Shown: positions 2 to 20,927, numbered from the stretch's first letter. The stretch is DNA of 64,000 nucleotides from Gammaproteobacteria bacterium (GCA_029248745.1 JAQWIT010000008.1:1-64000); one strand, 5' to 3'. The notes: generated by a model from the sequence alone, not told the origin. Numbers and translations: made by a program.

Positions 2-181
2 TACTTCACAGAGTTTACTGTGGCGCTTATCCCACCTTTATACCATATGGTTATGAAGAAAAAACTCGCTACATGGGACAGAGACTTCGCTACTGAAGGC
101 GAATTAGAAATCGCTGCTAGAATCAATACTCAAGCTGGCTATCATATGCCAGAGGGTCATGATTCATACAGCCCTATCTAA
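2..181 (+). CDS. C-terminal fragment of membrane-bound non-haem diiron monooxygenase/desaturase family protein (AlkB/XylM-like), truncated by window edge
   Basis: Frame 2 reads YFTEFTVALIPPLYHMVMKKKLATWDRDFATEGELEIAARINTQAGYHMPEGHDSYSPI*; the ALIPPLYHxVM...WD pattern resembles AlkB C-termini; next to ferredoxin and XylA-like reductase. Confidence 0.6.
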   Translation, partial: YFTEFTVALIPPLYHMVMKKKLATWDRDFATEGELEIAARINTQAGYHMPEGHDSYSPI

Positions 182-193
182 GCAGACCTCTTA

Positions 194-228
194 ATGGGCT
201 CGGAGATACCTCCGGGCCCATCTTTTTT
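194..228 (+). terminator. Rho-independent terminator after the monooxygenase fragment
   Basis: ATGGGCTCGGAG-ATAC-CTCCGGGCCCAT followed by TCTTTTTT. Confidence 0.8.
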
Positions 229-483
229 GAACCCACAATAGAAGAGATATCAAACAGGCGCCCTGAACAAGCACCTGAAGATTGACCAAACTGTTTAGGT
301 AGGCGACTGCTCAACAGGATATCTCTTGAACGAACTTAATGCTTCGATAGGTTTTATCTAAAGCAGTATTAAAATTCACAAACTTGGCCAGATTGAAGTA
401 ATACAAATCATGTTTGCTTCGGCCATACGCCCTGAATATGCCTGAATTATCGTGTCATATTCATTATAAAGTGAGGTAGAAAA

Positions 484-663
484 ATGGAAGTAAAATGGGA
501 TCAAAACGCCTGCGAACATGCCGGTGTATGTGTTAACTCTTTACCAAATGTCTTCAAAGTCGAAGATGGTAATTTTGTAATTGACACAAATGCAGCTTCT
601 GAGGCAGAAGTTCTGGAAACAATTGCGAAGTGCCCATCAGGTGCTTTAACAGTTCAAGACTAA
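484..663 (+). CDS. Small ferredoxin-like protein, divergent mono-cluster (Fer4_19-type)
   Basis: 59 aa MEVKWDQNACEHAGVCVNSLPNVFKVEDGNFVIDTNAASEAEVLETIAKCPSGALTVQD*; Cys pattern CxxxxxCV...CPSGAL. Confidence 0.8.
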   Translation: MEVKWDQNACEHAGVCVNSLPNVFKVEDGNFVIDTNAASEAEVLETIAKCPSGALTVQD

Positions 664-707
664 GTTTAATATTTTATTTTAATAAATTCTAAGTGGAGGA
701 AAGTTAA

Positions 708-1388
708 ATGGCTATTGGAGATCATTTATCAGATGTAAAAGTACTATGGGGTGTTGCTGGTTGTGCAAACACAAGTAAAATCCTACTAACGGCTGCAGAG
801 AAAGGCGTCGATATCGACGGTCGTTCTGTAGATGCAAACTCAGAAGTTGAAATGAATGAACTTAAAAAGAACTCACCGTTCGGTTCAATTCCAGTTCTTA
901 AAGATGTAGATTTCTACATTTACGGTACTGAAGCTATCATGTCATATTTAGATGACAAAGGTTTTGGTCCTTCGCTCGTTCCGCGTAACGGCGTAGTCAG
1001 AGCTGTTAATTATCAATGGTCTCACATTGCTTCTTCTCACTTCGGACCAGCTGTGGCTAAATTAGCAGAAGGTGACGATAGTGCCATGGAAGTCGTCAAG
1101 CTTGGCATGAACATGCTAGAAACACAGTTAAATTCACGTAACAAACGTGGAGATTACATTGTTGGTGAGTTCAGCTTAGCTGATATCCACTGGGCTCCAA
1201 GTATTCATGCATTATGCCTACACGGTCAAGAATCACTGGTTGATTCTATGCCAGGTATCAAAGCATGGTGGGGCAATATGAAAGTAAGAAAGAGTATGAG
1301 TAAAGAAAATTATGTTGCTTATACTGTTCTACCTTCTCTTGATGAGATCCGTAGTAATAAATTACGCTCAGTCAGCATTAACGTATAG
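708..1388 (+). CDS. Glutathione S-transferase family protein
   Basis: Thioredoxin-like N-domain with SIPVL and a GST C-domain with FSLADIHWAPSIHAL; strong RBS (GTGGAGGAAAG). Confidence 0.8.
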   Translation: MAIGDHLSDVKVLWGVAGCANTSKILLTAAEKGVDIDGRSVDANSEVEMNELKKNSPFGSIPVLKDVDFYIYGTEAIMSYLDDKGFGPSLVPRNGVVRAVNYQWSHIASSHFGPAVAKLAEGDDSAMEVVKLGMNMLETQLNSRNKRGDYIVGEFSLADIHWAPSIHALCLHGQESLVDSMPGIKAWWGNMKVRKSMSKENYVAYTVLPSLDEIRSNKLRSVSINV

Positions 1389-1422
1389 ACGTTACACACT
1401 TTTAACCTCAAAGAAATAATAT

Positions 1423-2499
1423 ATGTTTGGTTTTTTCAAAAATAAAAAGCAAGATTACACAGCCAGAGTTAATGGTTCCACTTCTCTTACTGTTAAACCG
1501 GGGGACAACCTCCTAAAAACAGCACTTGAAGCAGATTTAGCCTGGCCTCATGATTGTCGTGTTGGGAGCTGCGGCTCCTGTAAGTGTCGCCTCGTCGAAG
1601 GTAAGATCAAGCCCTTAGCTGATTTCAGCTACGTGCTTGAAGGAGATGAGTTAAAAAATGGTTACATCTTGGCTTGTCAAACTCAATTAAAGACTGATAT
1701 CGAAGTCGAAGTTGAATTGTTGGCTGAAGGTGAACAGCAGCATCACTGGGAATCTGACGCTGTCATTAAACAGATTCGTGACCTGACGCATGACATCAAA
1801 GAGTTAACTGTCGAAATTATCGACCCTGATAACAGTTCGTCTAGTGAACTCTTGTACAAAGCTGGCCAATATGCTGACTTGAAGCTACCACACCTAAGTG
1901 AAGGTCGTAGTTACTCGTTTGCAACTACACCCACACTTGGCCAGAAAGAATTCTTGTTTTACATCCGGAAAGTACCGGGTGGTGAATTTACCGACTGGTT
2001 GTTTGAGGAAGATCGTATCGGGCAAACATTAACAATGAGCGGACCCTACGGCCAATTCGGTTTGGCCGACGAACCAGCAATGATGACATGTGTTGCCGGC
2101 GGTAGTGGAATGAGTGCAGTGGTGGGTATTTTACAAGCTGCACTTGAATCAGGCGTTAAGCGTGATGTTCGCTTTATTTTTGGTGCTCGAAGCCAAAAAG
2201 ACCTTTACCTTGACGATCTAATTGCTCAGATGGCATCAGATTGGCAGAGCAAAGGTCTTGGCAGCTTCGAATATATCCCTTGTCTATCGGAAGAACCTGA
2301 TGATAGCGCATGGGAAGGCAGTCGAGGCTTATGTACTGAATTCATCGTTGATAGTGAATCAAACAATGTCTCAGGACAAGCTTACCTCTGTGGCCCACCG
2401 GGTATGATTGATGCGGCTATTAGCGTATTTGAAAAAAATGGTGTTACCAAAGAAGCTATCTTCTTTGATAAGTTCCTAGATAAAAGCAATACGCCTTAA
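1423..2499 (+). CDS. 2Fe-2S ferredoxin / FAD-NAD(P)H oxidoreductase, monooxygenase electron-transfer component (XylA/MmoC-like)
   Basis: CRVGSCGSCKC...C plant-type 2Fe-2S motif; RSYSFATTP FAD motif; NAD-binding domain ending YLCGPPGMIDAA. Confidence 0.85.
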   Translation: MFGFFKNKKQDYTARVNGSTSLTVKPGDNLLKTALEADLAWPHDCRVGSCGSCKCRLVEGKIKPLADFSYVLEGDELKNGYILACQTQLKTDIEVEVELLAEGEQQHHWESDAVIKQIRDLTHDIKELTVEIIDPDNSSSSELLYKAGQYADLKLPHLSEGRSYSFATTPTLGQKEFLFYIRKVPGGEFTDWLFEEDRIGQTLTMSGPYGQFGLADEPAMMTCVAGGSGMSAVVGILQAALESGVKRDVRFIFGARSQKDLYLDDLIAQMASDWQSKGLGSFEYIPCLSEEPDDSAWEGSRGLCTEFIVDSESNNVSGQAYLCGPPGMIDAAISVFEKNGVTKEAIFFDKFLDKSNTP

Positions 2500-2568
2500 T
2501 AGTAATAAACATGTCAGGGCTTAAGTGATTTTGCCCTGTTGATTAACTTAATAAATTGGAGATTAATT

Positions 2569-2772
2569 ATGGCTTCTTTTAAAGCAATAGTAGTTATGGT
2601 TATCTGGACAGCTATCGCAGGATATGGCTTGTTCACAATCGGTGCTCATGAGCACTTCAGAAACCCAGTGTGGGCCGTAGGTACTGGCGTCGCATTACTT
2701 GTTATTCATATGATTAACATGGCTTTATATTTCAAAATTGCGGGCGAACGTCCATTTGAATGGTTTAAATAA
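2569..2772 (+). CDS. Small two-helix membrane protein, function unknown
   Basis: MASFKAIVVMVIWTAIAGYGLFTIGAHEHFRN...; ATG at 2569 after a GGAG RBS. Confidence 0.65.
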   Translation: MASFKAIVVMVIWTAIAGYGLFTIGAHEHFRNPVWAVGTGVALLVIHMINMALYFKIAGERPFEWFK

Positions 2773-2791
2773 AGCATTTTAGCAACACCTG

Positions 2792-2836
2792 AAAGCAACG
2801 ATTATTGGCAACCTCGCTGATATCGTTGCTTTTTTG
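2792..2836 (+). terminator. Rho-independent terminator
   Basis: AAAGCAACGAT...ATCGTTGCTTTTTT. Confidence 0.75.
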
Positions 2837-3080
2837 CAACAAGCGCTTGGAAAATACCACTTTTTGTCACAAATGCGTGCATTACATCTAGACTTGCCTA
2901 ATAAGAACGATATATAGTCCGATATAACACACTGTGTTAGAGACAAACGTTAAAGAATTGATTTTAGTGTTAAAGCTAACTTTTATTCTCTAACGAAAAT
3001 ATAAGATGATTTTGAAATTGATTTATCGACTTCACCTTCATCGTTCAATTTATATAAATGAACAACAAAGAGGGAAATAA

Positions 3081-4385
3081 ATGAAAAAATTTAATCGCTT
3101 AGCTTTGTCGACAGCGCTGCTAGCAGCTACGTCCACAAGCGTGATGGCAGGGCCTTACGGCTATGACCTTCACAATGTCTTGGCCCCGGTTTCTGGCTCA
3201 ATGGCTGGTACTAGTATCGCTAAACCACTAGACAACGTATCTGCAGTATTTGGCAACCCAGCGGGTTTGTCAGAATTCCGTGGTACTGAATTCACTTTTG
3301 GTGCAACATGGTATAAACCAAGTGCTGTTCTAGAGCATAATGGAGCTGTAACAGGATTAGTTGGTGGCGGTGCTTTCAAACAAAGCAACCGTAACGAAGG
3401 CTACCTCGTACCACAGATAGCTGTGACACAAGATCTTCGCGGTCTAGGTATTCCTGGAACACTTGGTGCTGGTGTGACAGCAACAAATGGTATCGGTGTT
3501 GAGTACCGTAAAGATCCAAACGCAATTGGTGCGAGTGCAGAGCTTATCGTAATCGGCGCTAACTTCGGCTTGAGTTGGGATTTAACACAAAACCTAACAA
3601 TTGGTGCAGCAGCAACTACGACATACTCAATGCTTGATTTAGGCTTAGTATCTACATCAGCTCAAACACATGATATTGCCTTTAAAGGTAGCTTGGGTAT
3701 GACTTACAAACTGCCGCATGCCACACAAATTGGTATGTTCTATCACTCAGAATTACGTCAAGATTTTGATGATATTATCCAAGTATCCCCGAGCGGATCT
3801 GGTGCTGATGGTGCCATGACAAATTTAATCATTGAGCAACCTCGTACACTCGGTGTTGGTATCAGTAATGAAATGTACATGGATGGCAACTTATATTTAG
3901 CTGCTGATGTAATGTACAAAAACTATGCTAATGCTGATTTTTGGCAAGATGTTTACACTGACCAATGGATTTTCTCAATGGGTGCGCAATTGACACAAGG
4001 CCCATGGGAGTTCCGTGCTGGTTACGGTTACGCTGATGATCCATCACGTGAAAACGTTCAAGGCCTGAGTCAGTTGGCTAATGTATGTGCTGGCTTACCA
4101 GGATCATGTGCTGCAATACCTGCACAAGGCGCATTAGGTATTAACGTAACTGAATATCTACAAGCAGCACAAGCTCAAGTTATCTATCGTCACCGTGTCA
4201 GTGTTGGTGCTGGTTATAAGGGTTTCTTAGCGCCATTCTTAGATCTAGATATGCATGCTGCTTACCAACTTGAAGAAGATAGAGATTATGGTGATAGCCC
4301 AGGCGGACTCTTGTCTGGCAAGCACACAAACTCTGAAGTTTCATCATGGCATGCTGGTTTCGCACTAACATGGCACTTTGAATAA
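3081..4385 (+). CDS. Outer membrane hydrophobic-compound transporter, OMPP1/FadL/TodX family
   Basis: Signal peptide; YGYDLHNVLAPVSGSMAGTSIAKPLDNVSAVFGNPAGLS N-terminus typical of FadL/TodX family; beta-rich, ends WHFE. Confidence 0.85.
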   Translation: MKKFNRLALSTALLAATSTSVMAGPYGYDLHNVLAPVSGSMAGTSIAKPLDNVSAVFGNPAGLSEFRGTEFTFGATWYKPSAVLEHNGAVTGLVGGGAFKQSNRNEGYLVPQIAVTQDLRGLGIPGTLGAGVTATNGIGVEYRKDPNAIGASAELIVIGANFGLSWDLTQNLTIGAAATTTYSMLDLGLVSTSAQTHDIAFKGSLGMTYKLPHATQIGMFYHSELRQDFDDIIQVSPSGSGADGAMTNLIIEQPRTLGVGISNEMYMDGNLYLAADVMYKNYANADFWQDVYTDQWIFSMGAQLTQGPWEFRAGYGYADDPSRENVQGLSQLANVCAGLPGSCAAIPAQGALGINVTEYLQAAQAQVIYRHRVSVGAGYKGFLAPFLDLDMHAAYQLEEDRDYGDSPGGLLSGKHTNSEVSSWHAGFALTWHFE

Positions 4386-4452
4386 GCAAAAGCTTGTTTA
4401 GTAATGGCTTATAGTAGTAATATTATAACGTAGTGCCCATTACCTAAATTAG

Positions 4453-4484
4453 AAAGCCAGGGCATTTGTCCTGGCTTTTTTTAT
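4453..4484 (+). terminator. Rho-independent terminator
   Basis: AAAGCCAGG-GCATTTGT-CCTGGCTTTTTTT. Confidence 0.85.
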
Positions 4485-4514
4485 AAACAATTGAACACAT
4501 ATAGAGAGACTAAA

Positions 4515-4997
4515 ATGAAAAAACTACTTAACACTGTGTTATCTGCTAGTTTATTAGCGGCTTCATTCACTGCGATTGCAGAAGAGGCAAAAGGCCCAAC
4601 ATTATTCGAACGTATTGGCGGTGAGCCAGTTGCACGTGAAATCGTTTCTGATATCTGGGATAACCATGGTAAAAACCCAATCGTTAAAAACCGTTTCCAA
4701 TACAGCGATCCTGTTTATGTAAAACAAAAAGTATATGAAATCTTCGCAATGGCGACTGGTGCTAATGTTGAGTACACAGGCCAAGATATGAAGACGACAC
4801 ATGCTGCTATGAACATCAGTGAAACAGAATTCAATGCTGTTGTTGACGATATCATGTTAGCGCTTGACGAAAATGCTATCGCACAGCAAGAAAAAAATGA
4901 AATCCTAGCAATTCTTTGGTCTGTACGTCCAGATGTTGTTAACTCTAATGTAACAACACAAGCTCTAGCTCCAGCTAAAGCTCAACACGCACACTAA
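4515..4997 (+). CDS. Group 1 truncated haemoglobin with predicted signal peptide
   Basis: MKKLLNTVLSASLLAASFTAIAEE then TLFERIGGEPVAREIV...KTTHAAMNISETEFNAVV. Confidence 0.8.
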   Translation: MKKLLNTVLSASLLAASFTAIAEEAKGPTLFERIGGEPVAREIVSDIWDNHGKNPIVKNRFQYSDPVYVKQKVYEIFAMATGANVEYTGQDMKTTHAAMNISETEFNAVVDDIMLALDENAIAQQEKNEILAILWSVRPDVVNSNVTTQALAPAKAQHAH

Positions 4998-5007
4998 AAT
5001 GTATTCC

Positions 5008-5040
5008 AGCCCTCTTGCATTGGCAAGAGGGCTGATTTAT
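5008..5040 (+). terminator. Rho-independent terminator
   Basis: Perfect 11-bp stem AGCCCTCTTGC-ATTG-GCAAGAGGGCT then GATTTATT. Confidence 0.75.
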
Positions 5041-5170: not shown

Positions 5171-6367
5171 ATGACTGATTTGGTATTTCATAAAGCAGAA
5201 AAATATATTAAAGAAGATTTAGAGTATTATTTTTCTGGCGAACGCGATATTCACAGTCAAGTAAAACCTGGCCAAGATATTTATAGCTTTACACCAGACT
5301 CAACACATCTCAATATTGATTATAAAGATGGCAAAGTGGGTAATTTTTTCCTCCCTTTTGCTCCTGGTTCTCTAGATCGGATATACATAGGTATTAGCTT
5401 CCCTTTATTTGCAAATAGTTGGGGAGCTGCCTTTCTGAGACACTTAATGACATTAGTTAAACCAGATGGCTGTGTTGTTCTACCTGTCTATCCTGAAATG
5501 CAAGCCTCTGAAAAAAACTTCTGGGCTAGAAGCATTTTGGAGAATATCTTTATTAGCCGCAGCCGCTGGAAAGGGATGAGTAATATCTGGGCAGAAAATG
5601 ACGGTGTTATGTCGATGCGAATAGGACGTAAAAGCCCACCCGAAATTGACAGCACGGCAAACTTTTTATTGCGCCAGGGCAGTCAAGTAATTGTCAAACA
5701 GCTTATTTGCGAGCTAAAAACAGAGCTCTCTGCAAATGACTATTTCTTGAACCTGCACCAGTCTCACTGGATCAATATGGCCACCAGTGCCATCATAGAA
5801 AGGATAATTCAGGACCATTTTGGCCGTAAAGGTTCTGTTCATTTTTGTGCACTAGGCGATAACCCTAATAATGGTTTATTAGCAACTGAACTTTCGCTTA
5901 GCCCGCATATCAATATAAAAGACGCTGTAAGCCAGATAACAAGCACTGAGCCTTCGATTAACCACCCTGATGCGCTTCTGGCCTACCACAACAGACAATT
6001 GAGCAACAAGTTACACCTTGCTCATGATGAAGATACTGCATTAGCGTCAACTGAACTAAATGTGATTAGTTTGGTTAACACTTTGTCAGATAAAACCAAT
6101 GACGAACAAGTAACACTCATCAATAAAGCTTGGCAGAAACTTGCGCCGAATGGCCTGTTAATCGTACATGAAACTAGCTCAAACTTATCACCAGAACATA
6201 TCAAACAACAGCTGAGCAAATTAGGACCAACTAAATATTATTCGTCTATTGTTGCTTCTGAACATAAAGCAGATGTTGAAATAAGCCATTACTCACTTCT
6301 TATTGAAGAGGAGCTAAGAGAAGAAAATAAGAATAAAGCCGGCGTTTTTTGGGTCGTTCAGAACTAG
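5171..6367 (+). CDS. Methyltransferase-like protein, possibly two divergent SAM-MTase-fold domains
   Basis: RHLMTLVKPDGCVVLPVYPE and AWQKLAPNGLLIVHE resemble post-motif strands of class I MTases; no clear GxGxG. Confidence 0.45.
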   Translation: MTDLVFHKAEKYIKEDLEYYFSGERDIHSQVKPGQDIYSFTPDSTHLNIDYKDGKVGNFFLPFAPGSLDRIYIGISFPLFANSWGAAFLRHLMTLVKPDGCVVLPVYPEMQASEKNFWARSILENIFISRSRWKGMSNIWAENDGVMSMRIGRKSPPEIDSTANFLLRQGSQVIVKQLICELKTELSANDYFLNLHQSHWINMATSAIIERIIQDHFGRKGSVHFCALGDNPNNGLLATELSLSPHINIKDAVSQITSTEPSINHPDALLAYHNRQLSNKLHLAHDEDTALASTELNVISLVNTLSDKTNDEQVTLINKAWQKLAPNGLLIVHETSSNLSPEHIKQQLSKLGPTKYYSSIVASEHKADVEISHYSLLIEEELREENKNKAGVFWVVQN

Positions 6368-6729: not shown

Positions 6730-8049
6730 GTGAAAAAGTTATCTGAAAATACAACTGATTTACTTCAAGAAATCAAGACCGAGGCATCCGAGTTACCGAA
6801 GAACAAACGTCGTGACTTCATGCTCAACGGATTAAAATTAACCGCGGGAACCGCACTTGCCACGACAGTTGGTCAAGTAGCTGCGAGTCAATCGAACTTG
6901 CCGCCTAATGTTCCTGAATGGAGCAAAACCCTAGGCCGAGGCGTTGTCTCGGTACCTTATGGTCTGCCGTCATCATATGAATCGGACGTTATTCGCCGTA
7001 CAGTCGAATGGCTTACCGCTGATAAGATTGCTTCTATCAGTATGACACCACTACATGAAATGAGCGGTATCATCACACCAAGTGGTCTGCATTTTGAACG
7101 CTACCATGGTGGTGTTCCTGATATTAACCCTAATGAACATCGCTTGATGATCAACGGCATGGTTGATCGTCCGTTGTTATTTACGATGGATGACTTAATG
7201 CGATTCCCTTCTGAATCACATATTCATTTCCTAGAATGTCCTGCAAATGGTGGTATGGAATGGCGTGGCGCTCAAATGGAAGCATTGCAATTCACCCATG
7301 GTATGTTAAGTGGCTCTGAGTGGACAGGTGTCAGACTATCAACACTCTTGCAAGAAGCTGGAATCAAACCTGGTGCTAAGTGGGTCTTAGCAGAAGGGGC
7401 TGATGCTGCGGGTATGTCACGTAGTATTCCAATCGATAAAGCATTAGACGATACACTTATTGTCTTTGCTCAAAATGGTGAGATGCTTCGCCCAGAGCAA
7501 GGTTACCCTGTTCGATTGTTCACACCTGGCTGGGAAGGAAACACTAGTGTTAAATGGTTACGCCGCATAGAAGTCGGTGATATGCCATGGGAACATCGTG
7601 AGGAAACCTCTAAATACACCGATCTACTTGCAGATGGTACTGCAAGAAGACATACCTTCGTACAGGAAGTGAACTCTGTTATCACTTCACCATGCCCTGA
7701 AAAACCAATTCAAGGTAAAGGGCTACTTCAACTTGAAGGTATCGCATGGTCAGGCCGCGGTAAAGTGAAACGTGTTGATGTTTCTCTTGATGGTGGTGTG
7801 TCATGGCAAACAGCCAAAATTAAAGGCTTAGTGTTAACTAAATCACTGACACGTTTCAGTATGGAAATTAACTGGCAAGGTGAACCATTGTTGCTTCAAA
7901 GCCGCGCTATTGATGAAACTGGATATGTTCAACCCACGCTTGCACAGTTACGCGAAGCACGTGGTACGAACTCTATCTATCACAAAAACTCAATCCATAC
8001 TTGGCAGGTACAGACAGACGGGGCGGTAAACAATGTACAACTCGGTTAA
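6730..8049 (+). CDS. soxC: Sulfite dehydrogenase/sulfane dehydrogenase molybdopterin subunit SoxC
   Basis: Tat-type NKRRDFMLNGLKL leader; HFLECPANGG Mo-Cys motif; order CDXYZA. Confidence 0.93.
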   Translation: MKKLSENTTDLLQEIKTEASELPKNKRRDFMLNGLKLTAGTALATTVGQVAASQSNLPPNVPEWSKTLGRGVVSVPYGLPSSYESDVIRRTVEWLTADKIASISMTPLHEMSGIITPSGLHFERYHGGVPDINPNEHRLMINGMVDRPLLFTMDDLMRFPSESHIHFLECPANGGMEWRGAQMEALQFTHGMLSGSEWTGVRLSTLLQEAGIKPGAKWVLAEGADAAGMSRSIPIDKALDDTLIVFAQNGEMLRPEQGYPVRLFTPGWEGNTSVKWLRRIEVGDMPWEHREETSKYTDLLADGTARRHTFVQEVNSVITSPCPEKPIQGKGLLQLEGIAWSGRGKVKRVDVSLDGGVSWQTAKIKGLVLTKSLTRFSMEINWQGEPLLLQSRAIDETGYVQPTLAQLREARGTNSIYHKNSIHTWQVQTDGAVNNVQLG

Positions 8050-8974
8050 AAAAAAGTTTAAAACGTTGGTTTTGGCAGTTGCTGCACAAGGCCTTTTAAC
8101 ATCAACAGTCGCTTTTGCAGATGAGTCAAAATATGGTTTTGGCCGAACCGCAACTCAAGAAGAAATCGCAGGTTGGGATATCGATATCCGTCCTGATGGT
8201 CAGGGTCTCCCTGCTGGTAGCGGTTCTGTCGCTGATGGTGAAGGCTTGTATGAAGCAAAATGTGCGTCATGTCATGGCTTGTTCGGTGAAGGTGAAGGCC
8301 GCTGGCCTGTCCTTGCCGGCGGTGAAGGTACACTCGCTCATGAGCGTCCAGAAAAGACCGTTGGTAGCTACTGGCCATATGCAAGCACCTTGTGGGATTA
8401 CACGCGACGAGCAATGCCCTTTACAGCGCCACAATCATTAACTGCTGATGAAACATATGCGATTACTGCTTATGTCTTATATCTCAATGAAATTGTTGAT
8501 GAAGAGTTTGTGTTAAGCAAAGAGAACTTTTCGACTATCAAAATGCCTAACGAGCCAAACTTCTTTGAAGATGATAGGCCTGATGTCAAAAACACAACAT
8601 GTATGAAAGATTGTAAAGACCCAGCATCTATCAAAGTGGTTTCTACTATTGCTGGTGTAACACCCCTCGAGCACCTAGAAGAAGGTGCTGCAGAAACAGC
8701 CGCAGAAGCTGCATCAGAGACTACTCATGGTAAAGCTATTTACAACCAATCTTGTGCAGTATGTCATGACCATGGTGTAGCTGGTTCTCCTAAAACGGGT
8801 GATGCTGACGCCTGGGGCGACAGGATCGCTACCGGAACTGAAATGCTCGTTAAACGTGCTATTACAGGCTATGTCGGTGACGAAGGTGTTATGCCTCCTA
8901 AAGGCGGTAACATGAGTCTAAGTGACGAGGATGTAGCTGAAGCTGTGCATTACATGATCGAGAAAAGTCAATAA
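8033..8974 (+). CDS. soxD: Dihaem cytochrome c subunit SoxD
   Basis: Two CxxCH motifs (CASCH, CAVCH); overlaps soxC. Confidence 0.9.
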   Translation: MYNSVKKKFKTLVLAVAAQGLLTSTVAFADESKYGFGRTATQEEIAGWDIDIRPDGQGLPAGSGSVADGEGLYEAKCASCHGLFGEGEGRWPVLAGGEGTLAHERPEKTVGSYWPYASTLWDYTRRAMPFTAPQSLTADETYAITAYVLYLNEIVDEEFVLSKENFSTIKMPNEPNFFEDDRPDVKNTTCMKDCKDPASIKVVSTIAGVTPLEHLEEGAAETAAEAASETTHGKAIYNQSCAVCHDHGVAGSPKTGDADAWGDRIATGTEMLVKRAITGYVGDEGVMPPKGGNMSLSDEDVAEAVHYMIEKSQ

Positions 8975-8999: not shown

Positions 9000-9341
9000 A
9001 TGAACAAGTTAACACAACTTCTTACAGCGATGCTCCTACTTCCATTACTGCTCTCTTCTGCATACGCAGACAACATAGCAGAAGGTAAAGAGATTTCTTT
9101 TGACAGAAAGAAAGGCAATTGCTTAGCATGTCATGCAATGGATGACGGCGAATTAGCTGGTTTAGTTGGGCCGCCTTTGATGATGATGAAAGTCAGGTTT
9201 CCGGACAGGGCCGTACTAAGGGAACAAGTCTGGGACCCGACAATCAGAAATCCCGCTACATCAATGCCACCATATGGTCGCCACCGTATGATGACGGAAG
9301 AAGAAATTGATAAAGTCGTGGACTATCTGTACACGCTTTAG
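9000..9341 (+). CDS. soxX: Sulfur oxidation cytochrome c SoxX
   Basis: KGNCLACH motif and C-terminal EEIDKVVDYLYTL. Confidence 0.9.
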   Translation: MNKLTQLLTAMLLLPLLLSSAYADNIAEGKEISFDRKKGNCLACHAMDDGELAGLVGPPLMMMKVRFPDRAVLREQVWDPTIRNPATSMPPYGRHRMMTEEEIDKVVDYLYTL

Positions 9342-9379: not shown

Positions 9380-9832
9380 ATGCAACGAAGATTACTACTT
9401 AAAAGCCTGTTAGGCTTTACAACAATGGCTGCAGCAATGACTGCTATGCCAAGACTAGCAATGGCTAAATGGTCTAAAGCATTCGATAATGGTACCGTTG
9501 ATGGTGCCTTAAATGACCTGTACGGCAGTGCAGAACTGACTGCTGATGACGCAATTAAATTAAAAGTGCCAGAAATTGCTGAAAATGGTTCTGTTGTTCC
9601 TGTTACTGTGAAGTCAAAAATGGCTAACGTAACAAACATCAGTATCTTTGCAGACAAAAACCCACAACCTCTAGCAGCCTCTTTCACATTACCAGAGGGT
9701 GCTGCTGCAGAAGTTTCTATCCGTATTCGGCTTGGTGAAACTCAAGTCGTAAAAGCGGTCGTTGAAGCTGATGGTAAGCTCTACACTAAACAGCAAGAAG
9801 TTAAGGTAACAATCGGCGGCTGTGGCGGTTAA
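9380..9832 (+). CDS. soxY: Thiosulfate carrier protein SoxY
   Basis: Leader with MQRRLLLKSLLG; C-terminal GGCGG carrier motif. Confidence 0.95.
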   Translation: MQRRLLLKSLLGFTTMAAAMTAMPRLAMAKWSKAFDNGTVDGALNDLYGSAELTADDAIKLKVPEIAENGSVVPVTVKSKMANVTNISIFADKNPQPLAASFTLPEGAAAEVSIRIRLGETQVVKAVVEADGKLYTKQQEVKVTIGGCGG

Positions 9833-10186: not shown

Positions 10187-11023
10187 ATGAAAGGTTTAAC
10201 TTGTTTGTCTGCAATACTGCTTGGTTCACTGCTTGTTAGCGCCCCAAGTTATGCAGATCCTCAGTCTGACCAAGACGAAATCAGGACTTTTTTCCAAAAA
10301 CGTTTCCCTAAAGTCGAACTGGCAGGTTTTGCTGATGGTGCATATGCCATTAATGAAAATGCTCGCAGCCAATGGTTAGAAATTGAAGAATTTCCACCTT
10401 ACGAAGATGCCGTCGATGAAGGTCAAGAATACTTTGAAACACCTTTTGCAAACGGTAAAAGTTACGCTGACTGCTTCCCTAACGGCGGTATAGGTATTAA
10501 GCAGGATTACCCAAAATTTGATACTGACAGCGGTGAAGTCATCACTATCGAATATGCCATCAACCAATGTCGCACAAGCAATGGCGAAGAAGCTTTGCCA
10601 TACGGACAAGGCGAGCTCGCTTATGTCTCGGCTTACATGGCATCAACATCTAGAGACAATATTATTAATGTCATTATTCCAGATGATGAACGTGCTTTAG
10701 CCGCTTATGATGCGGGTAAGAGAATGTTTTATGAGCGAAAAGGCCAGCTTAACATGGCATGTGCTACTTGTCATATCAGCATTGCTGGCTCGCAATTGCG
10801 TGCAGAGATCACAAGCCCGGCATTAGGTCATACAACCCATTTCCCTGCATTTCGTTTCGCTTGGGATGATATCGGCACTTTACAAAAACGTTATGCGGGT
10901 TGTAATACACAAGTTCGTGCTAAACCCTTTGCACTTCAAAGTGAGCAATACCGTAACTTAGAGTATTTCCATACATATATGGCTAATGGCTTGCCGCTCA
11001 ATGGCCCAGGCTCAAGGAAATAA
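10187..11023 (+). CDS. soxA: Sulfur oxidation c-type cytochrome SoxA (mono-haem form)
   Basis: Signal peptide; single CATCH motif; C-terminal RYAGCNTQVRAKPF. Confidence 0.93.
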   Translation: MKGLTCLSAILLGSLLVSAPSYADPQSDQDEIRTFFQKRFPKVELAGFADGAYAINENARSQWLEIEEFPPYEDAVDEGQEYFETPFANGKSYADCFPNGGIGIKQDYPKFDTDSGEVITIEYAINQCRTSNGEEALPYGQGELAYVSAYMASTSRDNIINVIIPDDERALAAYDAGKRMFYERKGQLNMACATCHISIAGSQLRAEITSPALGHTTHFPAFRFAWDDIGTLQKRYAGCNTQVRAKPFALQSEQYRNLEYFHTYMANGLPLNGPGSRK

Positions 11024-12184: not shown

Positions 12185-13945
12185 ATGAATCGTCGTGAAT
12201 TTACTCAGTTACTTGCTATCGCAAGTGCAGCCAATATTTTCCCTAGGACAGCGTTTTCTAATCACACTGCATCAAGACCGGAAAACATGTATGACATACC
12301 TAATTTTGGTAATGCTCGGCTGCTTCATATTACGGATAGTCACGCACAACTAAAGCCAATTTACTTTCGAGAGCCCAGTGTCAACATTGGCGTTCGCCAG
12401 GAAGATGGCAAACCACCCCATATCGTTGGTAAACCATTTCTAGATTATTTCAATATCAATGCCAATGGTATTCAATCACATGCTTTTACCTCTCTCGACT
12501 TCATTACAGCAGCAGAAAAATTTGGAAAAGTTGGCGGCTATGCTCACGTCAGTACTTTAGTTAAACAATTACGTCAAAGTTATGGTGATACTGACCGCTC
12601 ATTATTACTTGATGGCGGTGATACATGGCAGGGGTCAGCCACCGCTTATTGGACACGCGGCATGGATATGGTCGAAGCATCAAACTTGCTTGGGGTTGAT
12701 GTTATGACAGGACACTGGGAATTCACTTATCAAGATACTGAAGTCTTAAGTAATATCGAAGCCTTTAACGGAGAATTTATTGCGCACAACGTTAAAGTTA
12801 ACGAAGATGCCTTATTCGATGGTTCACCTGCTTACGATGAAGACACCGGTAACGCCTTTAAGCCATATACTATTAAAACGATGGGCAATCATCGCGTTGC
12901 TGTCATCGGACAGGCTTTCCCTTATACGCCAATAGCTAATCCAAGTCGTTTCATTCCAGATTGGACTTTTGGTATTCAAGCCCAAGAATTACAAGACCTT
13001 ATTGATGAGGTTAAGGAAACAGAGCAGCCTGATGCTGTCATACTCCTCTCTCATAATGGTATGGATGTCGATATCAAGCTTGCAGCGACTGTTGGTGGCT
13101 TAGACGCTATCTTAGGTGGACATACACATGATGGCGTACCTAAACCTGTCGAAGTTAGAAATGCTACTGGCGGTATCACATTAGTGACAAATGCTGGTTC
13201 AAACGGCAAATTTGTAGGCGTGTTAGACCTTGAATTGGGCAAAGGCCACGTTAAAGGCTTCCGTTACACCTTGCTGCCCGTTTTTTCTAACTACCTGGAA
13301 GCCGATGCAGAAATGGATACTTTCATCAATGATGTTCGTGCACCTTACGAAAGTCAGCTTAATGAAACCCTAGCTGTTTCTGATGAATTACTTTACCGTA
13401 GAGGTAACTTCAACGGTACCTTTGATCAGGTTATCTGCGATGCTCTTCGTGAAGTAAATGGTGCTGAAATTTCGTTATCACCTGGCTTCCGCTGGGGTAC
13501 GACCGTTATGCCAGGCCAAAACATTACCTTTGAACATGTTATGGATCAAACCTGCATCACTTACCCAGAAACCTACACACGTGAAATGACAGGTAGCGAA
13601 ATCAAGGCCATTCTTGAAGACGTCTGTGACAACTTATTCAATGTTGATCCTTTCTATCGTCAAGGCGGTGATATGGTTCGTGTTGGTGGTATGGATTATG
13701 TTTGTGACCCACTGGCAGGTTTTGGCGAACGCATCTCAAATATGACCCTAGATAGCGGTAAAACTATTGAGGCTGATAAGCGTTATAAGGTTGCTGGTTG
13801 GGCGACTGTGAACGCTCAGGCAGAAGGTGCGCCGATCTGGGATGTCGTTGCTGGTTACTTACGTGACAAGAAACAATTCTCAATTGAAAAGCTCAATACA
13901 CCGAAATTGAAGAATATGGCGGGTAACAAAGGCATTGTCACTTAA
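12185..13945 (+). CDS. soxB: Thiosulfohydrolase SoxB
   Basis: MNRREFTQLL leader; LLHITDSHAQLKP, LLDGGDTWQGS, MTGHWEFTY metallophosphatase motifs. Confidence 0.95.
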   Translation: MNRREFTQLLAIASAANIFPRTAFSNHTASRPENMYDIPNFGNARLLHITDSHAQLKPIYFREPSVNIGVRQEDGKPPHIVGKPFLDYFNINANGIQSHAFTSLDFITAAEKFGKVGGYAHVSTLVKQLRQSYGDTDRSLLLDGGDTWQGSATAYWTRGMDMVEASNLLGVDVMTGHWEFTYQDTEVLSNIEAFNGEFIAHNVKVNEDALFDGSPAYDEDTGNAFKPYTIKTMGNHRVAVIGQAFPYTPIANPSRFIPDWTFGIQAQELQDLIDEVKETEQPDAVILLSHNGMDVDIKLAATVGGLDAILGGHTHDGVPKPVEVRNATGGITLVTNAGSNGKFVGVLDLELGKGHVKGFRYTLLPVFSNYLEADAEMDTFINDVRAPYESQLNETLAVSDELLYRRGNFNGTFDQVICDALREVNGAEISLSPGFRWGTTVMPGQNITFEHVMDQTCITYPETYTREMTGSEIKAILEDVCDNLFNVDPFYRQGGDMVRVGGMDYVCDPLAGFGERISNMTLDSGKTIEADKRYKVAGWATVNAQAEGAPIWDVVAGYLRDKKQFSIEKLNTPKLKNMAGNKGIVT

Positions 13946-14083: not shown

Positions 14084-14630
14084 CATGTCACAAACTGATG
14101 TAAAAAATGCCATGATGAAGATCATCACGGGCATTCAAGAAAACCCAAGCTCGTCTAAAGTTTTTTTCCGCGCAGCTACGCAGTGGGAAGAAGACGTTCG
14201 TTGTACAGCACAGGTAAGAGACTTCCCGCCAATGGTCATAGACGAACCGCCTGTTTTAGGTGGACAAGATGCTGGCCAAAACCCTGTCGAGCTCGTCCTA
14301 GTTGCATTAGGTACTTGCCAAGAAATCATGTATTCAGCTTATGCATCTGTCATGGGCGTTGAAATTGATTCTGTTAAAGTTAATGTGAAAGGTAATCTAG
14401 ACTTGAAAGGCATGTTTGGTCTTGATGAAACTGTTCCAGCTGGATTTACAGATGTTAGCTTTCAAACAGCTATCGAAAGTAGTGCCGATGACGAAGCATT
14501 GCTTAAACTTATAGAAGCTGCGGAAAGCAATTGTCCTGTATTAGACATCTTGACAAGAAAAGTGCCTGTCGATGGTACCGTGTCAATTAATGGGCGCGAC
14601 ATGAATAGCCTGATCAAAAAAAGTGTTTAA
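14084..14630 (+). CDS. OsmC family protein
   Basis: PVELVLVALGTCQEIMYSAYAS and ESNCPVLDIL motifs. Confidence 0.8.
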
Positions 14631-14655
14631 TTTTTGACCCGTACATGAAAATGTT

Positions 14656-14685
14656 GAGGGCTATCATATAGCCCTCTATTTCTTA
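14656..14685 (+). terminator. Rho-independent terminator
   Basis: GAGGGCTAT-CAT-ATAGCCCTC followed by TATTTCTT. Confidence 0.6.
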
Positions 14686-14756
14686 TCCAAGCATCCTTTA
14701 CCCATTAAAGCTTCCGTGACACTATAGTACCCACTCCGACAACACCTTGCTCCAAA

Positions 14757-16164: not shown

Positions 16165-17541
16165 ATGAATATCAAAAAGTTTATTAGCAAACCGCTAAAA
16201 GTATTAGCGCCATTTGTAGCTGCCTCAGTGATGGCTACAAACCCAGTTATGGCTGATGAAACATGTATGTCACCGTACATGGTTAAAATCGTTGGTCAAG
16301 AAGACTTCGTTTATGTTTGGACTCTGGGTGTTGAAGGCCTAGGTGACGGACAAGATAAAATGGTTACCGTTGACGTTAACCCAAAATCTGACAACTACGG
16401 TAAAGTGATTGCCTCTGAATCTGTCGGTGGACGTAACGAAGCACATCATTCTGGTTTCACAGATGATCGTAAATACCTTTGGGCTGGTGGTTTAGATTCA
16501 AACAAAATCTTTATCTTTGACGTACACACTGATCCAGCTAAAGCTACTTTAGTTAAAACTATCGATGACTTCGTTAGCAAATCAGGTGGTGTTGTTGGTC
16601 CTCACACAACTTACGCTCTTCCAGGCCGTATGATTATCACTGGTTTATCAAATAACCAAGATCACGGCGGTCGTACTGCATTAGTTGAATACACAAACGG
16701 TGGTGAATACATCGACACTTACTGGATGCCTACTGATGATAACCTTCAAGGTGCTCACAAAGGTGGACAGTTTGCTGACGGTTACGGCTACGACGTACGT
16801 GCATTACCATCTAAAAACGTGATGTTAACTTCATCATTCACTGGCTGGTCCAACTACATGATGGACTTCGGTGCGATGTTAGGTGATGCAGAAGCGATGA
16901 AACGTTTCGGTAACACAATGGTTATCTGGGATCTTCACACTCGTAAGCCTAAGCAAGTCTTAGACGTACCAGGTGCACCTCTAGAAGTACGTTGTGCATG
17001 GAAACCTGAAAACCAATACTGTTTCTCCACAACGGCATTGACTTCACAAATCGTTTTACTTCATGACAATGATAACGACGGTATGTGGCAAGCTGATAAC
17101 GTATCAGATATCGCTAACCCAGCTGATATCCCGTTACCAGTTGATATCTCTATCCAAAGTGATGATGCTCTTTTATGGGTTAACACTTTCTTAGACGGTA
17201 TGACACGTGCTTACGATATTACTGATCCACATGCGCCTAAAGAAGTCTACTCCAAGAAAATTGGTAACCAAGTAAACATGGTTTCTTCAAGCTGGGATGG
17301 TAAGCGTCTTTACTACACCACTTCTTTACTAGGTAACTGGGATAAGAAAGCACAAGATAATGACCAATTCATTAAACTTTACCACTGGGATGGTAAAGAA
17401 ATGACTGAACAGTTCGTTATTGACTTCCATGCAGAAAAACTAGGTCGTGCTCACCAAATGCGTTTTGGTGCTTACTCTCTCTACGGCAAAACAGCTAAAG
17501 TTGAGCAAGCTAAAAACCCAATCGTAGCAATGAGCAAGTAA
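16165..17541 (+). CDS. mtoX: Methanethiol oxidase (selenium-binding protein SBP56 family), exported
   Basis: Signal peptide MNIKKFISKPLKVLAPFVAASVMATNPVMA; NEAHHSGFTDDRKYLWAGGLDSNKIFIFD, YGYDVRALPSKNVMLTSSF, AHQMRFGAY; next to MauG-like gene. Confidence 0.85.
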   Translation: MNIKKFISKPLKVLAPFVAASVMATNPVMADETCMSPYMVKIVGQEDFVYVWTLGVEGLGDGQDKMVTVDVNPKSDNYGKVIASESVGGRNEAHHSGFTDDRKYLWAGGLDSNKIFIFDVHTDPAKATLVKTIDDFVSKSGGVVGPHTTYALPGRMIITGLSNNQDHGGRTALVEYTNGGEYIDTYWMPTDDNLQGAHKGGQFADGYGYDVRALPSKNVMLTSSFTGWSNYMMDFGAMLGDAEAMKRFGNTMVIWDLHTRKPKQVLDVPGAPLEVRCAWKPENQYCFSTTALTSQIVLLHDNDNDGMWQADNVSDIANPADIPLPVDISIQSDDALLWVNTFLDGMTRAYDITDPHAPKEVYSKKIGNQVNMVSSSWDGKRLYYTTSLLGNWDKKAQDNDQFIKLYHWDGKEMTEQFVIDFHAEKLGRAHQMRFGAYSLYGKTAKVEQAKNPIVAMSK

Positions 17542-17559: not shown

Positions 17560-18966
17560 ATGAAATATTCAAGTTTAAAAGTTAGTCTGCTAATACCGTT
17601 TTTTTTTTATAGTAACTACGGCTTTTCAGAAGAAATAACCGCCCAAGGAGCTGATAAAGTTCGGGACTTTTATAACGAAGAACATTTTATTATTGAGGAG
17701 CCAGAGGCAGGAGAGCAATCTCCCGCCTCTGGTAAGCCTCAAACCATAAACGGTGTTCGCATCGGGCCAGGAGATGATAAGACCGGATATGAGACAACAG
17801 GGTATACCACTAACTCTGTTGCTATAACGGCCCGTCAAGGCATAAAAGCAGACTTAATCCGTGTCGTAGAAAACCCACCTTTAGGCCTTCCTGAAATACC
17901 TGTACCAGTCGACAATCCTTTGACTGCTGAAAAAATTAATCTGGGTAGAAAATTATTTTTTGACCGTCGTTTATCCCTTAATGACACTTTTTCCTGTGCT
18001 ATGTGCCATGTTCCAGAGCAAGGGTTTACTAGCCATGAAGTCGAAAAGGCGGTTGGGCTAGAAGGGCGTTCAAATCGTCGAAACTCTCCATCAATCTATA
18101 ACACGGCCTATCTCGAACGATTATTTCATGATAATCGCGAAACAAGCCTAGAAAACCAAATATGGGGTCCTCTATTATCCAAAAATGAAATGGCAATGAC
18201 TTCTTTTGGCCATGTCTTGCAAAAACTAAGTACCCTCAAAGATTATGATGGCCTATTTGAAGCCGCATTCGACGGGGAAGGTGCCAATATTCTTACATTA
18301 GGTAAGGCTTTTGCCAGCTACCAGCGTGTGCTTGTATCAGGTAACTCCGCCTTTGACCGTTGGTATTTTGCTAATGAAGAAAATGCTATTTCAGACCAAG
18401 CCAAACGCGGATTTGAGTTGTTCCGTGGCAAAGGCCAATGTATCAGTTGTCATAGTGTTGGAGAGAAAACAGCTTTATTCACTGACAAGCTCGCGCACAA
18501 TACAGGCCTCGGCTTTAAGCGCTCTATGGGGAAAAAACCAGAGAAAGAGCGTATGTTGATCGCGCCAGGCACTTATGCTTACGTTAAGAAGTCCAAAAAG
18601 GATTTAGTTGGGCATCCAGAAATGGCTGATGTCGGTGTTTATGAGGTAACTCAAAATCCTGATGACCGATGGAAATACCGAACCCCAACATTGCGTAATG
18701 TTATTCTGACTGCGCCCTATATGCACGACGGTTCGATGCCCGACTTGAAAGAAGTAATTGCTTTTTATAATCAAGGCGGCATGCTCAAGAACGAAAGTGG
18801 CTTTCCGAATGTCACACAATCACCTCTGATACAACCCTTGGGTCTAACAGAGAATGAGATTAACGACTTAATTGCTTTTATGGAGACGTTGACGGGTGAC
18901 AATATTGCTGAAGTGATTTCTGATGCATTTTCCACACCGGTAGGCGATACAACAAATGAACACTAA
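17560..18966 (+). CDS. Dihaem cytochrome c peroxidase/MauG family protein
   Basis: Signal peptide; CAMCH and CISCH; YRTPTLRNVILTAPYMHDGSMPDLKEVIAFY. Confidence 0.88.
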   Translation: MKYSSLKVSLLIPFFFYSNYGFSEEITAQGADKVRDFYNEEHFIIEEPEAGEQSPASGKPQTINGVRIGPGDDKTGYETTGYTTNSVAITARQGIKADLIRVVENPPLGLPEIPVPVDNPLTAEKINLGRKLFFDRRLSLNDTFSCAMCHVPEQGFTSHEVEKAVGLEGRSNRRNSPSIYNTAYLERLFHDNRETSLENQIWGPLLSKNEMAMTSFGHVLQKLSTLKDYDGLFEAAFDGEGANILTLGKAFASYQRVLVSGNSAFDRWYFANEENAISDQAKRGFELFRGKGQCISCHSVGEKTALFTDKLAHNTGLGFKRSMGKKPEKERMLIAPGTYAYVKKSKKDLVGHPEMADVGVYEVTQNPDDRWKYRTPTLRNVILTAPYMHDGSMPDLKEVIAFYNQGGMLKNESGFPNVTQSPLIQPLGLTENEINDLIAFMETLTGDNIAEVISDAFSTPVGDTTNEH

Positions 18967-19492
18967 ACAATTCACACGATTTTCACGCCATGCATTTGTC
19001 ATTATCTGCTTAGCACTTTTTTCAGTAAACAGTTTCGCGAGTGATAAACCACTCATGTCTGAAATGACAGGTAATCGCACCGCACCTCCTATTGCATTGC
19101 CGGATAGTAATGGCCAGCCTTTCGATATGAAGGAATACGAAGGTAAATACGTTCTCGTTAACTTCTGGGCTCACTGGTGTGGCCCTTGTGTTAAAGAATT
19201 TCCTGCAATGCAGGCGCTATATGATGCTTTAAACCAAGATGGTTTTGAAATTATCGCCATTCATGCTGGACCGCCTCAGGGCCGTGTCCGTCCTTTCCTA
19301 AAAAAACACAATATCACTTTTAAAACTGTTTTAGACGCCAATATGTCCGTCGAAGGTTGGGAAGTTAAAGCATTACCGATGAGTTACCTTATTAGTTCTG
19401 AAGGTAAATTAATTTATAAAGCGCTTGGACCAAGGGAATGGGAAATTGATAAGATGCGAGCTTTAATGTCTGACTCGGGAAAAGCAAGCTAA
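18956..19492 (+). CDS. TlpA-like exported thioredoxin-fold protein
   Basis: Signal peptide; NFWAHWCGPCVKEFPAMQ. Confidence 0.88.
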   Translation: MNTKQFTRFSRHAFVIICLALFSVNSFASDKPLMSEMTGNRTAPPIALPDSNGQPFDMKEYEGKYVLVNFWAHWCGPCVKEFPAMQALYDALNQDGFEIIAIHAGPPQGRVRPFLKKHNITFKTVLDANMSVEGWEVKALPMSYLISSEGKLIYKALGPREWEIDKMRALMSDSGKAS

Positions 19493-19596: not shown

Positions 19597-20787
19597 ATGT
19601 CTGAACAACATTATGAGATTGTGATTGTCGGTGGTGGTGCTGCCGGCATCAGCACGGCAGCAAGGCTGGCTAAAGAACTACCTAGTGGCAGTATTGCCAT
19701 TATTGAACCTTCAACAGAACACTATTACCAACCGATTTGGACTTTAGTCGGTGGCGGTGTAGTGCCTAAAGAAGTTTCACAAAGAGATACTGCTACCCTT
19801 ATTCCTGAAAGTTGTGAATGGATTAGAGATGCCGCTACGGGCTTTGATCCTGAAAACAATAAAATCACCACTAAAGACAGCGGTGATATTCACTACGAAT
19901 ACTTAATCGTTGCCGCTGGTTTACAGATCAACTGGACCGATATCAAAGGCCTTTCACGTAATTTAGGTAAAAAAGGCATTTGTAGTAACTATAGCTATAA
20001 ATCTCTCGACTCAACGTGGGCAAACATCCGTAATCTAGGTAAAGGCACAGCGATATTTACCCAACCTGGTAGCCCTATCAAGTGTGGTGGTGCACCGCAG
20101 AAGATCATGTATCTAGCAGAAGATTACTTCAAACGTTCAGGTCTTAGAAACCAAATCGACGTTAAATTTGTATCAGGCATGCCTGGTATCTTTGCTGTTA
20201 AGAAGTATGCTGAACAACTCAATAAAATTTGTGATACTCGAGGTATAGAACGTACCTTCAGGCATGATCTGGTCGAAGTTGATGCAGATAATAAAGTCGC
20301 TATATTTAAAGACTTAGATTCGGAAGAATTGGTGTCAATGGAATACGATATGCTGCATGTCACACCTCGCATGGGGCCACCTACTTTTATTAAGAAAAGT
20401 CGCTTGACGAATGATGCTGGTTGGATCGATGTCAATAAAGAAACAATGCAGCACACCAGCTATGACAACATCTTCGCCTGTGGTGACTGTAGCAACTTGC
20501 CTACGTCTAAAACTGCTGCTGCAATTCGTGCTCAAGTCCCTGTCATGGTCAGAAATATACTCGCTGCACGCGATAATCAGCCGTTAGTTGATCAATATGA
20601 TGGTTACACTTCCTGCCCATTAGTGACAGGCTATGGGCGTTTGATTTTGGCTGAGTTCGATTATGACTTAAACCCAAAAGAAACTTTCCCCTTTGATCAA
20701 AGTGTTGAAAGAAAGAGCATGTATATCTTGAAGAAAGATCTACTGCCCAAGTTATACTGGCACGGTATGTTAAAAGGTCGCTTTTAA
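19597..20787 (+). CDS. sqr: Sulfide:quinone oxidoreductase-like flavoprotein
   Basis: IVIVGGGAAGIS; EHYYQPIWTLVGGG; FTQPGSPIKCGGAPQKIMYLAEDY; NIFACGDCSNLPTSKTAAAI. Confidence 0.9.
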   Translation: MSEQHYEIVIVGGGAAGISTAARLAKELPSGSIAIIEPSTEHYYQPIWTLVGGGVVPKEVSQRDTATLIPESCEWIRDAATGFDPENNKITTKDSGDIHYEYLIVAAGLQINWTDIKGLSRNLGKKGICSNYSYKSLDSTWANIRNLGKGTAIFTQPGSPIKCGGAPQKIMYLAEDYFKRSGLRNQIDVKFVSGMPGIFAVKKYAEQLNKICDTRGIERTFRHDLVEVDADNKVAIFKDLDSEELVSMEYDMLHVTPRMGPPTFIKKSRLTNDAGWIDVNKETMQHTSYDNIFACGDCSNLPTSKTAAAIRAQVPVMVRNILAARDNQPLVDQYDGYTSCPLVTGYGRLILAEFDYDLNPKETFPFDQSVERKSMYILKKDLLPKLYWHGMLKGRF

Positions 20788-20886: not shown

Positions 20887-20927
20887 GTCGTTGCTTCTTT
20901 GTATGTACTTAGACTAGGCCTATTGTG

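Follow-up and report, generated by a model that had tools for sequence, protein, structure and literature searches.

The locus studied here raises the question of which compound is oxidized by a membrane oxygenase that, together with a set of partner genes, lies at the very start of the window (the whole stretch of gammaproteobacterial DNA that was analysed, 64 kb long). Dimethyl sulfide (DMS) is a climate-relevant gas, and for the best-studied organisms that grow on it, both marine and terrestrial, the first enzyme of its catabolism is missing. Papers up to 2022 still give this enzyme as a methyltransferase yet to be identified; in the 2026 papers examined, DMS sinks are counted by dmoA, ddhA, tmm and dso only. 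The reading favored here is that the oxygenase of the module is a DMS monooxygenase, membrane-bound and of the AlkB superfamily, which would convert DMS to methanethiol and formaldehyde. This is considered likely (probability about 0.7); substrate and activity are inferred, and there are no activity data.

Gene Content and Transcription Units of the Module

A first-pass annotation, made from the sequence alone, had described seven collinear genes on the plus strand. All seven are present in that arrangement, with Pfam support for all but the oxygenase fragment and the 67-residue protein; the fragment is identified by a 219-residue copy and full-length relatives. The module opens with the 3′ end of a gene for an AlkB-superfamily membrane di-iron oxygenase (OXY; 2..181, 59 codons), the remainder of which lies beyond the contig end. 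It is followed by a 59-residue single-cluster ferredoxin of the Fer4_19 type (484..663; Pfam E 6e-15, 55.4 bits with a cut-off of 24), whose motif CxHAGxC...CPSGA is kept in most partner clusters, and by a GST-like protein (708..1388; Pfam) with a Cys near its N-terminus (GCANTSK). The GST-like gene is kept in most clusters, but not in all; as it is missing from Thiobacillus-type clusters, it is regarded as auxiliary. Next are a XylA/BenC-like NAD(P)H reductase with 2Fe-2S, FAD and NAD domains (1423..2499; Pfam Fer2, FAD_binding_6 and NAD_binding_1) and a 67-residue protein with two hydrophobic segments (SMALL; 2569..2772), found only in oxygenase-bearing genomes. The latter is possibly an accessory subunit of the oxygenase, a role that is inferred. 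The outer-membrane channel (3081..4385) meets the Pfam cut-off for the FadL/TodX family (FadL/Toluene_X, E 1e-13, 50.9 bits with a cut-off of 29.7), its substrate being inferred. The last gene encodes an exported truncated globin (4515..4997; Bac_globin, E 1.5e-9) with a signal peptide recognized by eye, MKKLLNTVLSASLLAASFTAIAEE, and is kept in the compared clusters.

Three terminators had also been claimed. A terminator scan found the one between the oxygenase and ferredoxin genes (intrinsic, 194..221, plus strand), while the other two, at about 2790-2830 and at 4453-4484, can be seen in the sequence but are absent from the scanner output. Given the intergenic gaps and the terminator at 194-221, the module is read as several transcription units and not as one operon. 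It is closed by a bidirectional terminator found by the scan (5007..5034, plus strand), after which a conserved protein of unknown function (5171..6367, plus strand) adjoins the module in both genera (about 46–64% identity). An Rfam search returned tRNA only.

The window takes up the initial 64 kb of contig C12, which belongs to a 1.73 Mb genome; as its base 1 is also base 1 of the contig, the oxygenase gene cannot be extended upstream directly. On its own, the 59-residue fragment gave no Pfam or family match, and full-length relatives were therefore used instead. The fragment matches the last part of the 219-residue copy elsewhere in the same genome at 83% identity; that copy lies at the end of contig C17, with a copy of the 67-residue gene behind it. 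Contig C13 begins with the same 226 bases as the window (99%), and three oxygenase 5′ ends are found at the ends of contigs C14, C13 and C1. The genome thus likely holds three oxygenase copies, none of which is assembled whole, and the contig breaks inside the gene because it is repeated. By synteny with a related genome (G018, locus L087), the missing upstream half is inferred to be the right end of C13, which is likely; an oxygenase start comes there after ACAD-HK-RR, NorQ-like and VWA genes. In several genomes there is more than one oxygenase paralogue; a clade with GST-like genes in tandem is among these.

Fold, Iron Site and Phylogeny of the Oxygenase

The full-length relatives mostly have 380–430 residues and fall under Pfam FA_desaturase (PF00487). 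Their only PDB matches in a phmmer search are to AlkB (E 1e-28). An AlphaFold2 model built from 59 relatives (pLDDT 84.6, pTM 0.88) was compared to the PDB with Foldseek, and only two AlkB structures were significant (TM 0.74, E 1e-12). An AlkB-type fold, which was taken as one criterion for the AlkB/XylM superfamily, is therefore met. The second criterion, the presence of nine ligand His, is not. FtAlkB coordinates its two irons by nine His and one Glu (PMC10113152). Eight of these nine His are invariant in the 77 family sequences, and the Glu is kept in 72 of them. The ninth, equivalent to the Fe2 ligand His311, is Gln in 77/77, while it is His in all eight AlkB/XylM-type outgroups.

In the tree the family forms one clade on a long stem, outside XylM and AlkB (SH-aLRT 99); this tree was a quick search, and its long branches caution against reading the outgroup order. 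Identity to AlkB and XylM is about 27–30%, and no NCBIfam model names the family. Altogether, the oxygenase belongs to an AlkB/XylM relative with a modified iron site that is neither AlkB nor XylM. An AlkB orthologue was rejected on the separate clade, the Gln site and the partners, which are a 2Fe-2S reductase and a Fer4_19 ferredoxin instead of rubredoxin; a XylM orthologue was rejected because the family does not group with XylM in the tree and has the Gln site. A plain lipid desaturase was likewise rejected, on fold, partners and distribution.

Inheritance of the Partner Genes

Of 64 loci, 34 have the reductase gene (RED) or SMALL within 5 kb downstream of the oxygenase gene (SMALL 26, RED 22), while the 5 kb upstream hold RED in none and SMALL in one of 68 loci. 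SMALL occurs in nine of 369 Gammaproteobacteria, all nine being oxygenase-positive (p 2e-15). Where the oxygenase gene stands alone, as in Porisulfidus-like and Thiothrix-like sulfur oxidisers, FDX-GST-RED-SMALL lie together elsewhere in the three genomes examined; at that position a related genome has OXY-GLB-FDX-GST-RED-SMALL (L177-L179, L181). The ferredoxin, GST, XylA-like reductase and 67-residue protein are thus co-inherited with the oxygenase, even when sited elsewhere in the genome. In many clusters a cytosolic truncated globin follows the oxygenase gene. Recurrent upstream genes encode a NorQ/CbbQ-type ATPase with a VWA protein, a FixLJ-like two-component pair and an acyl-CoA-dehydrogenase-like flavoprotein.

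A sub-clade of seven marine entries (SAR86, OCS116, Porticoccaceae and others) has OXY-RED-SMALL without FDX and GST. Here mtoX was found in none of the six tested, and the Fe2 carboxylate is lost in five of the seven. Given this sub-clade without mtoX, it is possible that the substrate varies across the oxygenase family.

Association with Methanethiol Oxidase

Downstream of the module, the window carries genes for sulfur and methanethiol oxidation, all on the plus strand. SoxC (6730..8049; 659 bits, cut-off 420) is followed by a cytochrome c (8033..8974) that has no equivalog match and is SoxD-like by its position after SoxC. SoxX (9000..9341), SoxY (9380..9832), SoxA (10187..11023) and SoxB (12185..13945) all score over their cut-offs. 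The methanethiol oxidase gene mtoX (16165..17541), 11 kb downstream of the module, meets the NF052453 equivalog (747.7 bits, cut-off 650); its start is uncertain, with the longest ORF running from 16012. The mto cluster continues with a MauG-like di-heme protein (17560..18966), a TlpA/SCO-like protein (18956..19492), a sulfide:quinone reductase-like protein (19597..20787) with a homologue in the Methylophaga mto cluster, and a SulP permease (20925..22634), a composition as described for M. thiooxydans (PMC6548844). The fhc genes of the H4MPT pathway are found at 37–42 kb.

In the family to which the window's genome belongs, the oxygenase is present in 11 and mtoX in 12 of 57 genomes, 10 of these being shared. 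Among the 36 good genomes of this family, both genes mark the identical eight (p 3e-8). Genomes that break the match were not counted as contradictions, being 81–84% complete (G043 and G022 with mtoX only, G010 with the oxygenase only). Across 369 Gammaproteobacteria, mtoX is found in 12 of 13 oxygenase genomes vs 22 of 356 others (p 6e-13), and without the window's own family in 10/11 vs 22/354. Four genomes with only distant AlkB-like matches all lack mtoX. Counted by family code, all seven oxygenase families have mtoX, compared to 23 of at least 174 others, and mtoX is present in 40 of 50 further oxygenase genomes. As related genomes do not count as independent cases, the p-values serve as guides only. 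Linkage in the same cluster is stronger evidence than such counts. The two genes are physically linked in the window, in Methylophaga (Methylophagaceae), in Thiobacillus (L140, L142, L157), in marine gammas (L149, L150, L152) and in G228. In the marine gammas they lie in a single run, OXY-FDX-GST-RED-SMALL-FADL-MTOX-MAUG-TLPA. Co-inheritance and linkage with mtoX are shown, as are the gene content and the AlkB fold and ligand pattern.

Occurrence in DMS-Degrading Bacteria

Only two of 24 Methylophaga genomes (g15) hold the oxygenase, M. thiooxydans DMS010 (G070) and M. sulfidovorans (G067), and both species are reported to grow on DMS. The identity of G070 agrees with its mtoX (256503-257906, scaffold 1104571000268). 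In M. thiooxydans grown on DMS, a 'fatty acid desaturase' (MDMS009_226), an 'NAD(P)H flavin reductase' (MDMS009_61) and a FadL-like porin were up-regulated (Kroeber and Schaefer, 2019; PMC6548844). MDMS009_226 was read by these authors as a lipid repair enzyme, and the first DMS step was left open. The genome has two FA_desaturase genes, one of 307 residues and the other, the family oxygenase, located on the scaffold where the mto genes have tags in the range 97-284. MDMS009_226 is therefore very likely the family oxygenase, an identification inferred from tag ranges and not from annotation. In DMS-SIP experiments on soils, Methylophilaceae and Thiobacillus were dominant and dmoA was not found, while Hyphomicrobium was raised in lake sediment (PMC4611497). 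The oxygenase family is present in Methylobacillus sp. MM3, in several Thiobacillus including T. thioparus DSM 505, and in Hyphomicrobium zavarzinii.

The known enzyme DmoA is no candidate for a DMS monooxygenase in the window's genome. In six of eight oxygenase genomes examined (that of the window and five relatives), no luciferase-family gene (PF00296) was found, so that DmoA is absent from the window's genome and was rejected as a background DMS enzyme. The oxygenase itself cannot be DmoA, as it belongs to PF00487 and not to PF00296. A difficulty is that DMS monooxygenase activity was undetected in M. thiooxydans (Boden et al., 2010, cited in PMC6548844), and that the H4F pathway is induced on DMS, the authors favoring a methyltransferase (PMC6548844). 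The undetected activity might be due to the lability of a membrane enzyme whose soluble partners are separate; this is an inference and no more than possible. M. aminisulfidivorans reportedly grows on DMS without mtoX, which indicates that other routes exist. No membrane or AlkB-type DMS oxygenase was found in the literature searched, preprints and most subscription papers being outside its scope.

Proposed Function

The first-pass annotation had inferred a dedicated oxygenase system, membrane-bound and supplied by an electron chain of ferredoxin and reductase, to be checked by a His count, a tree and neighborhood conservation, and to be abandoned if the oxygenase proved an ordinary lipid desaturase with which reductase and ferredoxin are not co-conserved. 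This inference is supported: the fold is that of AlkB, eight of nine ligand His are present, the family is a clade of its own outside AlkB and XylM, and the partners lie downstream or are co-inherited elsewhere; the refuting case was checked and not met. From its list of substrates, a methylated sulfur compound is favored, since the family travels with mtoX, occurs in DMS degraders and has published induction on DMS; an alkane or aromatic substrate is not supported, nor is the suggestion that the GST handles an epoxide.

In the proposed mechanism, of which substrate, product, electron path and the roles of the small protein and GST are all inferred, DMS would cross the outer membrane through the FadL-type channel. 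Electrons from NADH would enter at the 2Fe-2S/FAD reductase and reach the di-iron oxygenase, probably by way of the Fer4_19 ferredoxin; the 67-residue membrane protein probably accompanies the oxygenase. Hydroxylation of one methyl group of DMS would yield CH3-S-CH2OH, predicted to collapse to methanethiol and formaldehyde. MtoX would then split methanethiol, the Sox and SQR gene products would oxidize the sulfur, and the H4MPT pathway (fhc) would oxidize formaldehyde. The GST may handle glutathione adducts of formaldehyde or sulfur.

A bolder reading is considered more likely than not, again with the activity inferred. According to it, the oxygenases make up a new membrane di-iron family that has an eight-His site (one His to Gln), a dedicated ferredoxin and reductase and, as a new subunit, the 67-residue membrane protein. 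This family would supply the missing first enzyme of DMS catabolism in Methylophaga, Thiobacillus, Methylobacillus and Hyphomicrobium as well as in numerous marine or symbiotic sulfur oxidisers, and would thereby be a widespread, unseen DMS sink gene. If true, this marker gene for DMS consumption would change DMS-sink counts in metagenomes, and the His-to-Gln iron site and small membrane partner would be new for the AlkB superfamily.

Alternative Explanations

The strongest rival is that the substrate is another small methylated or alkylated sulfur compound, such as dimethyl disulfide or another thioether, or that DMS is S-oxygenated to DMSO. The linkage to mtoX implies only that methanethiol is a likely product, several genomes have more than one paralogue, including the clade with tandem GST-like genes, and T. 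thioparus is reported to oxidize DMS to DMSO. However, a DMSO product would not need mtoX, and M. thiooxydans induces the genes on DMS, as far as the inferred identity of the desaturase is correct. This rival is considered unlikely.

Two other explanations are less probable still. The oxygenase could be a desaturase serving membrane-lipid repair under the peroxide or sulfide stress of methanethiol oxidation, as proposed in PMC6548844 and in line with the Pfam umbrella FA_desaturase. Against this, fold and sequence matches are those of AlkB, the reductase, ferredoxin, small protein and FadL channel are dedicated, the oxygenase is absent from most of the window's family, and three broken copies point to a multicopy gene in a 1.7 Mb genome; the explanation is very unlikely. 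The same grade is given to a hydrocarbon oxygenase acting on a short alkane or aromatic methyl group, with the mtoX association resulting from a shared habitat. The identity to AlkB and XylM and the FadL/TodX-type channel would fit, but neither alcohol or aldehyde dehydrogenase genes nor genes for ring degradation adjoin the oxygenase, unlike xylM, mtoX is found in 12/13 genomes as well as in the same cluster, and the family occurs in methylotrophs and thiobacilli.

Comparison with Known Systems

The DMS monooxygenase proposed here shares with AlkB (FtAlkB, PDB 8F6T/8SBB) the membrane di-iron fold, eight of nine ligand His and, mostly, the Glu. It differs by the Gln in place of His311, by an identity of about 25% to FtAlkB, by a ferredoxin and XylA-like reductase instead of rubredoxin, by the lack of an alcohol dehydrogenase and by the link to mtoX. 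With XylMA of pWW0 it has in common a hydroxylase with a single-polypeptide 2Fe-2S/FAD/NAD reductase and a nearby outer-membrane transporter (27% identity over 98%). XylM, however, keeps the His, belongs to a separate clade, and comes without ferredoxin, GST and 67-residue protein; substrate chemistry and neighbors differ as well. The Acinetobacter DMS S-oxygenase DsoABCDEF is also di-iron and multicomponent and acts on DMS, but it is of the phenol-hydroxylase type, unrelated to the family oxygenase, and its product is DMSO. DmoA of Hyphomicrobium sulfonivorans is a soluble, FMNH2-dependent enzyme of the luciferase family, which the window's genome lacks, whereas the reaction of DmoA/B, from DMS to methanethiol and formaldehyde, is the same as the one proposed for the membrane oxygenase.

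Variant oxygenase clades and module copies

A marine sub-clade of the AlkB-superfamily oxygenase (L091, L128, L151, L154, L155, L156 and L159; SAR86, OCS116, Porticoccaceae, Woeseiaceae and others) has the gene order oxygenase, XylA-like reductase, small membrane protein, without the Fer4_19 ferredoxin and the GST. The glutamate ligand of the iron site is replaced by glycine in five of its seven oxygenases, and the methanethiol oxidase gene mtoX is absent from all six genomes tested, the L156 genome being outside the test. Possibly, this sub-clade acts on a different substrate.

In a second clade (L025, L073, L074, L131 and L133-L137), the genes after that of the oxygenase encode the small membrane protein and a tandem array of two to four GST-like proteins. 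A 178-residue ORF at 7690-8226 of L079 (G000 C13:40001-55000), in the genome of the window, resembles the oxygenase start in its N-terminal part (48%) and a tandem GST-like protein in its C-terminal part. The ORF has the look of a second oxygenase paralogue that has suffered a deletion, unless it is a chimera created during assembly. On the same contig, L008 (G000 C13:1-12000) carries an oxygenase 3′ end almost the same as that of the window, followed by a reductase gene (261-563) of 100 residues that ends past the 2Fe-2S domain and is likely a truncated copy.

Associated genes

A conserved protein of unknown function (window 5171-6367) is kept beside the module across genera; its matches are solely sub-threshold and methyltransferase-like. 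Divergent from the oxygenase, a VWA protein and a NorQ/CbbQ-type AAA ATPase are encoded in L063 (9159-12067), L065 (79-3002) and L077 (11381-14301). Such pairs are of the kind that matures metal enzymes, and this one might be an iron-site activator for the oxygenase.

The FadL gene of L064 (G018; 14337-15594) is split into three ORFs, the remaining cluster being intact. A second mtoX cluster of M. thiooxydans (G070:C16:159561-166968) has its own FadL-like gene approximately 5 kb away, which may correspond to MDMS009_906, the porin induced on DMS.
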